This document shows, piece by piece, positions 17,387 through 63,238 of a DNA stretch of 64,000 nucleotides; position 1 is the first letter of the stretch, and every line of letters starts with the position of its first letter. The position numbers and the translations under genes were made by a program. Source of the stretch: Venturia oleaginea (taxonomy: Eukaryota > Ascomycota > Dothideomycetes > Venturiales > Venturiaceae); the NCBI GenBank assembly GCA_013176395.1, contig JABMLP010000012.1, forward strand, positions 1,364,001 to 1,428,000, written 5' to 3'. Under the pieces are notes generated by a model. It saw only the letters and a list, made by a program, of their open reading frames with translations. It was not told where the DNA came from and did no database searches.

Positions 17387-17409
17387 GGTATCCAAGATTT
17401 GATGAGAGG

Positions 17410-17420
17410 GGATTCGAACC
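17410..17420 (-). promoter_or_regulatory. Internal polymerase III B box
   Basis: GGTTCGAATCC matches the B-box consensus GGTTCGANTCC and starts at the first base after the T-arm intron. The A-to-B spacing is about 180 bp because of the introns. Confidence 0.8.
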
Positions 17421-17473
17421 CTTGGAGTTGTCAGTTTTCTATTGCGTTGTTTAATATGTACGAGATTTCTTAC
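17421..17473 (-). other. Intron in the tRNA T arm, spliceosomal type, 53 nt
   Basis: Begins GTAAGA, has AAACTGAC near the 3' end, ends CTCCAAG. Removal joins GATGCGGG to GGTTCGAAT, restoring the T arm. Confidence 0.75.
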
Positions 17474-17495
17474 CCCGCATCTTTCGATACTAGAA

Positions 17496-17524
17496 ATCAC
17501 CAAAGCTTGCGCTTGGAAGCATTT
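17496..17524 (-). other. Canonical anticodon-loop tRNA intron, 29 nt
   Basis: Starts one base 3' of the anticodon (after position 37), the normal place for eukaryotic tRNA introns removed by tRNA endonuclease. Contains TTTGG, able to pair with the anticodon region. Confidence 0.8.
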
Positions 17525-17539
17525 CTTGAGTCTAGCGCC

Positions 17540-17594
17540 CTGGAGTAAGAATTAGACCGAAGTGCATTGAAACCCCTCAAGATTATAGACCTAC
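17540..17594 (-). other. Intron in the tRNA D arm, spliceosomal type, 55 nt
   Basis: Begins GTAGGT, has GGTCTAAT about 14 nt before the 3' end, ends ACTCCAG. Removal joins GGTCTAA to GGCGCTAG, the canonical tRNA-Leu D arm. Confidence 0.75.
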
Positions 17595-17599
17595 TTAGA

Positions 17600-17610
17600 C
17601 CGCTCGGCCA
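17600..17610 (-). promoter_or_regulatory. Internal polymerase III A box
   Basis: TGGCCGAGCGG matches the A-box consensus TRGYNNANNNG and lies wholly in the first exon. Confidence 0.75.
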
Positions 17611-17617
17611 TCTCACC

Positions 17618-59166: not shown

Positions 59167-59712
59167 CGGGTGTGCAGGACTAAAGAGGGTGTGGTAGGTG
59201 GGATAATCAAACAGACAAACGCCATACATCGCTTCTGCCAGCTTGTAGCAGATTCGAAGGCGCTGGCCACCGCTACTCGGTTTCTTCGGGCCCCTGTTTG
59301 AGCTCCTATATCTTCGCCGACACCGTCGCCCTTGCCATACTCTGCCTCGAAGCGGTCTAAGTCCTCGACTTCTGTAAATAATGAACGTGGCTGCCAATCG
59401 GGATCTGCATAGCCTTTCCATTTGATTAATAACTGACGAACCCAGCCTCGCCCAACCCGTTTCTTCTCTGCGCGAAGTATACGTTCTACTTCAAACTCAG
59501 CCTCTGTTTCTTCGGTTTGAGGCACTAATGGTGGCGGCTGGGTATCATCGGATTCTTGTGAGGGCAGTGTGTCGGTTGCGGCTCGGCGGAGTAGGTCAAC
59601 GTGGAAACGGTTATGGATACCACTTGGCAGGTCAGCCAGCTCGTATACCATCGGGGAGATCTGGTTCTCGACAGTGTATTTGGCTTGCGTCCACGACAGT
59701 TTCTCTATAGCT
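59163..59712 (-). CDS. Integrase C-terminal tail with chromodomain (frameshifted from pol)
   Basis: Continuing pol in a different frame from about 59712: IEKLSWTQAKYTVENQISPM, VYELADLPSGIHNRFHVDLL and then a chromodomain, EFEVERILRAEKKR, RQLLIKWKGYADPDWQP, DLDRFEAEYG. The aromatic cage-like residues (F/Y, W, Y/W) are partly kept. It lacks its own natural start; in the intact element it would be the end of the Pol protein. Stop at 59163. Confidence 0.85.
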
Positions 59713-62700
59713 GCGGAGTATTGATATTCCTAAGGTTCAACCAGACTTTGTCGCCCTTTTTTAACGTTTCGGCAGCTTGACGTGACCTGTTGGCGTCGTT
59801 CTCCATCTTCTGCTGGGACCAGGCCATCGCTGCCTGTGCATATTCTTGTGCCTCTTCTATTCGTTGCACAAAGGTCTCGGCATCGGCTGTTGGTGAGTTA
59901 CTGGGTGAGATTCGTTGTACTTTCTGGATTGGTTCCGCATGGTAGCCGTGGGTTAGATAGAATGGACTCATCCCTGTGACTGAAGAGTCACGATTGTTCA
60001 GTGCTAACATAGCCGTAGGTAGTAGCGTTGGCCAGTCTAGTTGGGAGTATGCGATGAAGGCGCGGAGATAGCGTAGAACTTCCTGGTTCATACGCTCGGT
60101 CGCGCCATCGGTCTGTGGATGAAAGGCTGTAGAGAGTCTCTGCTCAATCTTTGTAAGTTCGCAAAGCTTCCTCCAAAAACGACCTGTCCAATTGCTGCCT
60201 CTGTCCGACGTCAATGCCATGGGAAATCCGTGGTAGCGATAGTGGCATTGTAAGAACCTTTTCGCGCACTCTTTGGCGCTCATTGTAGTCATAGCCTCCA
60301 ACGTAACACTTTTGAGGAGGCGATCTGTGATAACCATGAGGTATTTTGGGCCGTTTTCCTCCGCGGGCAAATCAGTCATGAAATCGATTGATAGCTCGCT
60401 GTGGAAGCGGGCCGGGATTGGAAGTGGTTTCAGAAGACCTCGCTTCTTATCACGCCATATTCCTGTTCTCCCACATACGTCGCAATTACGTACAAACTGC
60501 CGGACTGTCTTGTATTGTTGGGGCCAAAAGAAACTTCTGGATAGAATCGCAAGCGTGCTATCTCTCCCTGGGTGTCCAGTAACATGGGAATCGTGAGTTT
60601 GTTGGACCAGCGTTGTTCGCAGCGGTTCCCAATCTGGTACCCATAGGATCCCTCTTCTCGTGACCGCGCCGTGGTCGTCTACTTCGCATTCGGGTAGCTG
60701 TACCGACAACTTGAGCTCTGGAGGAAAGGAACGTTCGCCAGTAACTATAGCCGTATGAATAGCTTCGTAGGATTGGTCCTCTGCTATTGCGCGATCCCAG
60801 AGAAGTTGTAACTCTGGTTTCTCGAAAAGATCGCATCCTTTTGCAACTGACCGGTTTTGACCGTACCTAGTAGTGGACCGGTGTTGACCGTTTTCGGCAG
60901 TCAGCTGGTGTCGACCGTCCAGTCCAGTATTTTGCTGGGGCTCCCGTATAACGTCCCATGTACTATTGGATGTATTCGGTGTATTGACTGGGCAGATAAG
61001 GGCTTGTATTGCGATTGTTTCGGTCGTCCTCTCGGAAAGAGGAGGAAGCCATTCGTCCTTGATCAACTGGGCCACTCGCCCTTGTAGTCTCTCGTCGTTC
61101 TTGTCATGTGGCATATCTTGATGTCTTCTTGATAGTGCGTCTGGTCTTTGCGCTAGTTTTCCGGCGCGAAATTCCAGCTGGAATTGGTACTCAGATAGAA
61201 TTAGCGACCATCTTGCTTGTCTCTCTGACAAACGCTGCGCTGTCATAAAGTAGCGGAGATTCTTGTGATCGGTAAGGACTTTGAAAGGTGCTGCAACACT
61301 GCGTAGTTCTCCTCTCCAGTGTTCAATGGACTTGATTACTGCCAGTAATTCTTTATCGTGGATCTCGTAGTTACATTCAGCCGCAGTGAGCTTGCGGGAG
61401 AAGTATGCTACTGGTCGTAGTTTTCCTTTCATATCCTTCTGCGACAACGTGCCTCCCAGCGCGTAGCCAGAGCAGTCGCACTCGAGTACCGTATCCAGAT
61501 CTGGATTCCAGTGAGCCAGTATTGGGGCGGAGATGAATAGCTCCTTCAAGACTTGAAAGGCGTTCTCATGTTCTTTGTTCCAGACAAAAGCGACGGCCTT
61601 CCGTGTTAACTTGATTAAGGGGTCGGAGAGCTCTGAGAAGTTGTCGATGAAGTCTCGGTAGAAATTTGCAAAGCCTAGGAAGGAGCGTACGCCTGTGACA
61701 TTGACTGGAGCCTCCCATTCTTTAATCGCGGCAACTTTCTCTGGGTCGACTTTGATCCCTTCTCCTGCAGTGATAATGAACCCCAGATATTTGACCTCCT
61801 GAACAGCAAACTCGCACTTGCTTAAGTCTAGCCGAAGTCCAGCAGTCTTGAGCTTGGCAAGAATTTGGTTAACCTTAACCATGTGATCCAGATAGTCGCC
61901 GTCGCTCCATATCAAGACATCGTCCATGTAGGCTGAACAGCAGATATCTAGGGATTCCCGTAGGACTCCGTTGATGTATCGTTGAAAGCTCGCGGGTGCG
62001 CCAGCTAGTCCGAAGGGGGTAACTAGCCATTCGAATAGTCCAAATCGAGTGCGAAAAGCCGTTTTCCACTCATCGCCGTGCTTGATGCGGAGCCGATGAA
62101 ATGCCGCTCTGACGTCAAGTTTGGTGTACCAACGCGCTGTTGCTAGATTTCGTAGGGTTTCTCGGATTAGTGGCAATGGGTAGCGGTCCGATCGAGTGAT
62201 TCGATTCAGTGCCCGATAGTCTACACACATCCGAATGCCTCCACCTGGTTTCCTTACAAATAAGACTGGGGCTGCCGCTGGTGAGTTGCTGGCGCGTATC
62301 CAGCCCTTGTCCATATAGTCCGAAAGTGTTTTTCGTAGGACTAATAGCTCTTCCCTCGACATGCCGTATAATGGGCCCCAAGGAACTTCTGCCTCGCGAC
62401 CTTGTTCATCTCGTATCAATTCGATAACGTGATCGCGACCCTCTTGATGGGGCGCGATCTCTCCGTCTTCGTCGTCGAGAAAGGCATCAGCATGCTCTGC
62501 TATTTCTTCTGGTATCTCTTGTCGGATTTCTTCCTCAGTCTTTCTCTGTTTTCTTTCTGCTAACTTGCTTAGGGCCTTGTTGATATCCGACATCGAGATA
62601 GCCAGCACTTGTGTACCATCCGGTCCATCTCTTCTCAACCGTCGCTGGGCCCTTCCAACAATAGCTGCAAATACAGATCCTGACACTAGACAAGCCGCCC

Positions 62701-63238
62701 GCACGTGAGCGAGCCGGTCTCGCGCTTTGGTGTTCTGTTCTAGCCACCCCTTTTCTCTTACCGTGATGCGCTGGGATCCTTGACCAATAAGCAGCTTTCT
62801 CTTAGCTGCTATATATCGCACCCAGTTTCTCTCTGCCCATGCCTTGCCTAGGATAATAGGGAAGCTCAATCCTTTCACTATATACCCATAGACTCGCTCT
62901 GCTCGACCATCAATGTCGATCGTAGCGTAGGTCATGTGCGTAATACGGAGGTCTTCTCCGTTCTCGTGGCTCTCTTTAGCCAGTGCCAATTGTTTGGTGT
63001 CAATTGGGATGCGCGGTAGACGATGTGTTTGGACACTCTTCTCGCTGAAAGCAGCATAAGGGAGGCAGCCGTTATCAAAGAAGGATTCGGTGAAAGAAGT
63101 TCCGTTGATCAAGGTATCTATCAAGAAGGGTGTACTTTCCATCCTATCCTTTGCTGCTTTGATTTCTCTTATGCCTGGTAGCTTTGTAATGTCTTCGCCA
63201 TGTACATCTACTTCAGACCCTCGTGCGCGACGATGCAC
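59705..63238 (-). CDS. pol: Pol polyprotein: protease, RT, RNase H, integrase
   Basis: 1177 codons from a GTG at 63238; the frame is open some 30 bases further and overlaps gag. Protease has FFDNGC near residue 55. RT has CVDYRALNRIT, YTKLDVRAAFHRL and the active site YMDD near residue 440. RNase H has LECDCSGYALGG, HDKELLAVIKSIEHW and VLTDHKNLRYF. Integrase has the HHCC finger (TGHPGRDSTL ... CDVCGR), then LSIDFMTDLP, LTSDRGSNWTG and ERMNQEVLRYL as the D,D,E triad. It stops at 59705, 1-nt out of frame with the chromodomain tail. No other breaks were seen. Confidence 0.95.
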   Translation of the reverse strand: MHRRARGSEVDVHGEDITKLPGIREIKAAKDRMESTPFLIDTLINGTSFTESFFDNGCLPYAAFSEKSVQTHRLPRIPIDTKQLALAKESHENGEDLRITHMTYATIDIDGRAERVYGYIVKGLSFPIILGKAWAERNWVRYIAAKRKLLIGQGSQRITVREKGWLEQNTKARDRLAHVRAACLVSGSVFAAIVGRAQRRLRRDGPDGTQVLAISMSDINKALSKLAERKQRKTEEEIRQEIPEEIAEHADAFLDDEDGEIAPHQEGRDHVIELIRDEQGREAEVPWGPLYGMSREELLVLRKTLSDYMDKGWIRASNSPAAAPVLFVRKPGGGIRMCVDYRALNRITRSDRYPLPLIRETLRNLATARWYTKLDVRAAFHRLRIKHGDEWKTAFRTRFGLFEWLVTPFGLAGAPASFQRYINGVLRESLDICCSAYMDDVLIWSDGDYLDHMVKVNQILAKLKTAGLRLDLSKCEFAVQEVKYLGFIITAGEGIKVDPEKVAAIKEWEAPVNVTGVRSFLGFANFYRDFIDNFSELSDPLIKLTRKAVAFVWNKEHENAFQVLKELFISAPILAHWNPDLDTVLECDCSGYALGGTLSQKDMKGKLRPVAYFSRKLTAAECNYEIHDKELLAVIKSIEHWRGELRSVAAPFKVLTDHKNLRYFMTAQRLSERQARWSLILSEYQFQLEFRAGKLAQRPDALSRRHQDMPHDKNDERLQGRVAQLIKDEWLPPLSERTTETIAIQALICPVNTPNTSNSTWDVIREPQQNTGLDGRHQLTAENGQHRSTTRYGQNRSVAKGCDLFEKPELQLLWDRAIAEDQSYEAIHTAIVTGERSFPPELKLSVQLPECEVDDHGAVTRRGILWVPDWEPLRTTLVQQTHDSHVTGHPGRDSTLAILSRSFFWPQQYKTVRQFVRNCDVCGRTGIWRDKKRGLLKPLPIPARFHSELSIDFMTDLPAEENGPKYLMVITDRLLKSVTLEAMTTMSAKECAKRFLQCHYRYHGFPMALTSDRGSNWTGRFWRKLCELTKIEQRLSTAFHPQTDGATERMNQEVLRYLRAFIAYSQLDWPTLLPTAMLALNNRDSSVTGMSPFYLTHGYHAEPIQKVQRISPSNSPTADAETFVQRIEEAQEYAQAAMAWSQQKMENDANRSRQAAETLKKGDKVWLNLRNINTPQL

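Follow-up and report, generated by a model that had tools for sequence, protein, structure and literature searches.

A tRNA-Leu(CAA) gene of Venturia oleaginea is interrupted by two short insertions, one in its D arm and one in its T arm, in addition to an ordinary tRNA intron at position 37/38. These extra insertions are very likely U2-type spliceosomal introns that lie in an RNA polymerase III (Pol III) tRNA gene and are removed by the spliceosome, with this gene being one member of a genome-wide set. Judging from the sequence, maturation of some tRNAs in this fungus probably depends on the mRNA-splicing machinery. The gene is located within a 64,000-nucleotide stretch of DNA (the window), and has the following components.

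17617-17400, minus strand: tRNA-Leu(CAA) gene (copy A, L147), class II; 218 nt unspliced, 81 nt joined
17617-17595, minus strand: exon 1, acceptor 5' strand and D arm (read directly, boundaries rechecked by script)
17610-17600, minus strand: A box TGGCCGAGCGG, uninterrupted
17594-17540, minus strand: D-arm spliceosomal-type intron, 55 nt, GTAGGT...CTAAT...CAG (rechecked by script)
17539-17525, minus strand: exon 2a, with anticodon CAA
17524-17496, minus strand: ordinary 37/38 tRNA intron, 29 nt, not GT-AG (placed by eye from anticodon-stem pairing)
17495-17474, minus strand: exon 2b, comprising the 3' strand of the anticodon stem, the variable arm, and the 5' strand of the T stem
17473-17421, minus strand: T-arm spliceosomal-type intron, 53 nt, GTAAGA...CTGAC...AAG (rechecked by script)
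17420-17400, minus strand: exon 3, comprising the T loop, the 3' strand of the T stem (lacking one C), the acceptor 3' strand, and A73
17420-17410, minus strand: B box GGTTCGAATCC, contiguous in the DNA
17386-17382, minus strand: run of five Ts, candidate Pol III terminator

The window gene and its Leu-CAA paralogues

Direct reading and a script recheck of the boundaries agree with the original prediction of four exon pieces and a 29-nt intron at 37/38, and with insertions of 55 and 53 nt that each start with GT, contain a branch-like motif (CTAAT 11 nt and CTGAC 9 nt from the respective 3' ends), and end in CAG or AAG. The A box, B box, and T-run terminator are all present and intact, with their coordinates read directly. 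The tRNA arms are present after joining, as had been claimed, except that the T stem is one base short, which the original prediction missed; its 3' strand has four Cs, compared with five in both of the other Leu-CAA loci (L050 and L051). An acceptor/T-arm pattern script failed to recognize the window copy because of this missing C, and a copy that is one nucleotide short in the T stem may be weak or dead. Nonetheless, ARAGORN calls the joined form Leu(caa), whereas it reports no tRNA in the unspliced window DNA, the contrast between genomic and spliced forms that had been proposed as a check. Unspliced window DNA likewise has no Rfam tRNA match at the gathering score, and with E values up to 10 the local stretch gives no tRNA, its sole match being a 13.5-bit match to a non-tRNA family over the B-box hairpin.

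The two insertions resemble the protein-gene introns of the window in length, as was originally noted. A scan of the window for protein introns using splice signals and open frames, with reversed-sequence controls, yielded 51 candidate pairs, and two reversed controls together yielded 19. Clear candidates, which are likely protein introns, have GTAAGT-like starts, CTAAC or CTGAC, YAG ends, and lengths of 46-58 nt. The window also contains a retroelement (59705-63238, minus strand), with an open frame that has reverse transcriptase, RNase H, and integrase domains.

The genome holding the window (46.1 Mb in 61 contigs) contains further Leu-CAA genes, and on the question of how many others there are, which the original prediction had raised, the result is divided: L050 is likewise interrupted, but L051 is without extra introns. 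L050 shares both extra intron sites with the window gene, but the intron sequences between the splice signals are unrelated; intron interiors of Leu-CAA copies A and B have identities of 0.49 and 0.53, compared with 0.49 and 0.50 for shuffled sequences. L051 has only the 37/38 intron and reads across both extra sites exactly as the predicted joints do. At this locus (C34:1040772-1040880), the acceptor 3' end is changed, with TCTCATTC replacing TCTCATCA, and with such an end it may serve poorly as a leucine tRNA. For the window copy taken singly, the existence of L051 and the short T stem both count in part against the original reading. The same two sites recur beyond Leu-CAA, and the D-arm site is interrupted in L050, L058, L081, and L154, and the T-arm site in L050, L058, and L071. 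The paralogue search, with the window gene as DNA query, is not exhaustive; L058, whose 5' end has 26 letters in common with it, escaped the search. When the two Leu-CAA forms are folded, z is about -2.4, with a minimum-energy fold that lacks the full cloverleaf in the D and anticodon arms.

Interrupted tRNA genes across the genome

Of about 94 nuclear tRNA loci (a hand count that includes decayed loci), 30 carry extra insertions, 38 in all. All 38 lie outside 37/38, the position of ordinary eukaryotic endonuclease-type introns, and are situated in the D arm, anticodon stem, variable region, T stem, or T loop; eight genes have two extra introns each. Sixteen anticodons are affected: Leu-CAA, -AAG, -CAG, and -UAG; Pro-CGG; Arg-CCG, -UCU, and -UCG; Gly-UCC, -GCC, and -CCC; Ser-AGA, -GCU, and -UGA; Trp-CCA; and His-GUG. 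Within a census that is not exhaustive, every copy found is interrupted for Leu-AAG (three copies), Leu-CAG (one), Trp (two), Arg-UCU (two), Arg-CCG (two, one of them AT-AG), Pro-CGG (one), and Gly-CCC (one).

These loci were collected in several ways. Rfam gave 58 tRNA matches at E<=0.001 and 62 at E<=10; 63 of 1697 candidates were scored, and 40 stretches were fetched. An exact B-box search gave 101 places, and among the 100 listed, 86 were fetched, 8 are in known loci, and 6 are on contig C38, which looks mitochondrial; B-box places were filtered by a script that also demanded an A box. Three A-box patterns gave 15, 14, and 22 places, all of which were read, and a fourth gave 70, comprising 11 known, 57 read, and 2 unread. 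Most loci were thus found via an intact A box, such that introns breaking the A box would escape; a B box was no condition for the A-box set.

Several assignments changed or need comment. Leu-UAA was rejected for L058 and L154, which ARAGORN calls Leu-AAG, and Gly was rejected for L103, which it calls Arg-CCG. L081 is filed as Leu-AAG despite an ARAGORN call of Leu(taa), because its anticodon arm is the same as that of L058. Arg-CCG L195 (C12:1294715-1295085) has a T-loop intron ATAAGT...CAG, and at the same site in Arg-UCG L202 the intron starts GTATGT; the L195 5' site is either broken or AT-AG. The two His-GUG genes, L175 (C8:934214) and L180 (C14:804561), each have two T-arm spliceosomal-type introns ten exon bases apart, together with a 37/38 intron. 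Among other loci, L014 (C19:646219-646492) and L015 (C60:820714-820987) are low-scoring tRNA matches whose sequence and flanks are identical over the printed stretch, and are perhaps part of a repeat. Contig C58 (18,945 bases) has two copies of one organelle-like tRNA-Arg(UCG), which face opposite ways (L045 and L046). Two repeated sequences (L233/L239/L241/L244/L246/L247 and L216/L218/L219) have A-box-like motifs, and no tRNA was found in them.

Intron signals, exon conservation, and promoters

The original reading of the window insertions as spliceosomal-type introns is supported by their 5' sites, branch motifs, 3' sites, and lengths, and the same holds across the 38 insertions of the 30 tRNA genes. 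Counting the slides permitted by exon letters, 37 of the 38 have GT..AG ends versus 0.39 expected, with the remaining one (L195) being AT-AG. G is present at +5 in 35/37 introns, and the 3' ends are TAG (19), CAG (15), or AAG (3), so that 34/37 are YAG; L140, which is outside the 37-intron set, has a 56-nt intron with an AAG end. The CTRAY branch motif is present in 32/37 (the nearest being 8-17 nt from the 3' end) and absent from five, whereas 500 dinucleotide shuffles give 7.9 (sd 2.3, maximum 15). Apart from values of 69 and 89 nt, lengths run from 47 to 60 nt, and the median is 53 nt. T runs are not significantly depleted in the 37 introns (T5 or longer, 0 versus 0.57 expected; T4 or longer, 2 versus 3.4). 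Degenerate group I introns were provisionally discounted on length and signals, and a common mobile (introner-like) origin was rejected; at E<=0.01 only the His pair L175/L180 is similar, over 16 nt.

These signals also bear on whether the introns could be excised by tRNA endonuclease from bulge-helix-bulge structures, as non-canonical introns are in archaea and the red alga Cyanidioschyzon merolae. Several introns per tRNA gene in the D and T arms are known in those systems, from the parts of the reports covered here (PMC4090602, PMC9602550), and if slides of up to 3 nt are allowed, 3/37 introns fit a simple bulge-helix-bulge rule, compared with about 2 percent of random places. At the GT-AG joints themselves none of the 37 fits, although the rule is weak and 5/5 ordinary introns tested fail it too. 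Endonuclease removal gives no reason for the GT-AG ends, the CTRAY motif, or the uniform length of about 53 nt, and the genome's ordinary introns are different, being 6-52 nt long, with none of 45 ARAGORN-called examples in the fetched loci (a control that includes mitochondrial and doubtful hits) having GT..AG ends within slides of 4, and six having CTRAY. We therefore regard endonuclease excision as very unlikely, and spliceosomal introns as the better description of the insertions.

ARAGORN calls a tRNA in 39/39 sequences (29 joined and 10 uninterrupted paralogues, with L140 outside the set); when the 29 interrupted genes are left unspliced, it is correct for 3, wrong for 7, and makes no call for 19. 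Across 22 genes that have an intron in or near the T arm (a set that includes two Trp genes with a variable-region intron and leaves out the window copy), 108/110 T-stem pairs form after joining versus 50/110 when the DNA is read on, and 279/280 acceptor pairs form in 40 genes, figures that are partly by construction, with loci having been found by acceptor pairing and joints set with the tRNA fold in mind. An independent check on the joints comes from the uninterrupted paralogues of Leu-CAA, Leu-UAG, Gly-UCC, Gly-GCC, Arg-UCG, Ser-AGA, Ser-GCU, and Ser-UGA.

Those paralogues, together with an uninterrupted His copy, raise the question as to whether the interrupted genes are pseudogenes, with tRNAs supplied by the uninterrupted copies. 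Eukaryotic tRNA genes with an insertion in the D or T arm are usually read in this way, according to part of a review (PMC4090602), and some of the genes here look poor: the window copy is short by its one base, and L141 and L217, with 4/5 T-stem pairs each, look decayed. Conservation points the other way. Paralogues have intron sites in common but not intron sequence, and the exons of Ser-GCU L211 and L213 are identical (81/81), whereas their intron interiors (0.53 and 0.48) are at shuffle level (0.48 and 0.49); similarly, Arg-UCU L009 and L199 match at 71/72 exon positions, with intron interiors at 0.50 versus 0.49 shuffled. One His intron (0.64 versus 0.50) and Gly-GCC (0.59 versus 0.50) are slightly above the shuffled level. 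The near-complete acceptor pairing also argues against decay, as do the seven anticodons, Trp and Arg-UCU included, for which every copy found is interrupted, and there is little chance that the set as a whole consists of pseudogenes. Conserved exons with drifting introns that retain their splice signals fit with working introns, and if the introns had instead been gained independently at one site, splicing would be required too.

The arrangement of the introns relative to the internal promoter is consistent with Pol III transcription. Introns are downstream of the A box in 28/30 genes, and in the other two (L071 and L103) the intron cuts the A box before its last G, for which the intron's own first G substitutes. 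With T-stem introns, the B box begins with the terminal AG of the intron (AG|GTTCGA or AG|TTCGA); T-loop introns are inserted after TTCG, TTCGAG, or TTCGATT, and the second half of the B box is changed. A T run of at least four is present within 60 nt downstream of 28/30 interrupted genes, and L009 and L141 have no T4 run within the downstream stretch examined. Spliceosomal removal is normally linked to Pol II, and Pol II transcription with mRNA-like splicing and later cutting of the tRNA ends might be imagined, but this is exceedingly improbable given A boxes that are whole in the DNA, a B-box core that is mostly kept, intron letters that complete a box in several genes, the downstream T runs, and the presence of the same introns in U6, which is a Pol III gene in known fungi.

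The likely pathway for spliceosomal introns in Pol III tRNA genes would begin with transcription by Pol III from the internal A and B boxes as far as the T run. The nuclear spliceosome would then recognize each short intron through the 5' site, the CTRAY branch motif, and the terminal AG; the intron would leave as a lariat and the exons would be joined. The joined tRNA would fold, tRNA endonuclease and ligase would remove the 37/38 intron, and the ends would be processed, with the order of these steps and use of the products in translation being presumed. We lean toward the further view that the spliceosome is an obligatory tRNA-maturation enzyme here, with every gene for some decoding species (such as Trp, Arg-UCU, and Leu-AAG) having U2-type introns and translation of their codons being splicing-dependent, and that introns have lasted only at sites where both Pol III boxes (A and B) can still be read from the DNA, the GT or AG of the intron itself completing a box.

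Relation to known introns outside mRNA

Elsewhere in this genome, seven U6 matches were found, of which four are full length without an insertion (two of the four were read). U6 genes L236 (C12:1178041-1178350) and L237 (C36:59791-60106) have GT-AG introns with CTAAC, and L238 (C2:1122056-1122320) has a degenerate insertion at the L236 site. Of the 33 5S rRNA matches, 32 are 120-121 nt long and one is 106 nt; as judged by length, neither these nor the single SRP RNA match (266 nt; Fungi_SRP, over the cut-off) have an insertion, in a comparison that covers a capped number of scored candidates and would rank an interrupted copy low. The assembly lacks the 18S 3' signature.

If the spliceosome does act on these tRNA precursors, then there is a further route of tRNA maturation, decoding is tied to the spliceosome, and Pol III transcripts are routine spliceosomal substrates; it would also explain how tRNA finders can miss tRNAs in such genomes. 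The genes would further provide a test bed for the entry of introns into non-mRNA genes. A search of the open literature by title and start of abstract, which covers few subscription journals or preprints, returned no report of spliceosomal introns in tRNA genes.

Several known systems share some of these features. Ordinary eukaryotic 37/38 introns are found in the same genes here; they differ in that eukaryotic tRNA genes are described, in the part of PMC8450103 covered, as limited to one intron, at 37/38 and removed by tRNA endonuclease. Archaea, nucleomorphs, and C. merolae are alike in that a single tRNA gene can hold several introns, located in the D arm, anticodon stem, and T arm; in the covered parts of the accounts of the non-canonical introns (PMC4090602, PMC9602550), those of archaea and C. 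merolae are at bulge-helix-bulge sites and cut by tRNA endonuclease, those of nucleomorphs are 3-24 nt long with their splicing unexplained there, and none is described as GT-AG with a branch motif. The word stem 'spliceosom' has no occurrences in PMC4090602 or PMC8450103.

Likenesses are also found in other RNAs. In the ribosomal DNA of lichen fungi and other ascomycetes, spliceosomal introns that are short and ectopic interrupt a structural RNA that is not made by Pol II, and yeast can splice one from rRNA, in the account given in part of PMC8527467; the difference is that rRNA is a Pol I product, and tRNA has no occurrences in the text of that paper. Fungal U6 snRNA genes, with fission yeast as the example, have GT-AG mRNA-type introns in a Pol III transcript that are removed by the spliceosome, and two U6 genes here have such introns too, although, as put in part of PMC10484740, U6 is itself a spliceosome component, with introns thought to have been reverse-spliced near its catalytic bases. 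A tRNA is not part of the spliceosome. The tRNA introns described here differ further in being located between internal promoter boxes. Spliceosomal introns outside mRNA are thus already known from U6 and rDNA, and tRNA provisionally represents a new place for them.
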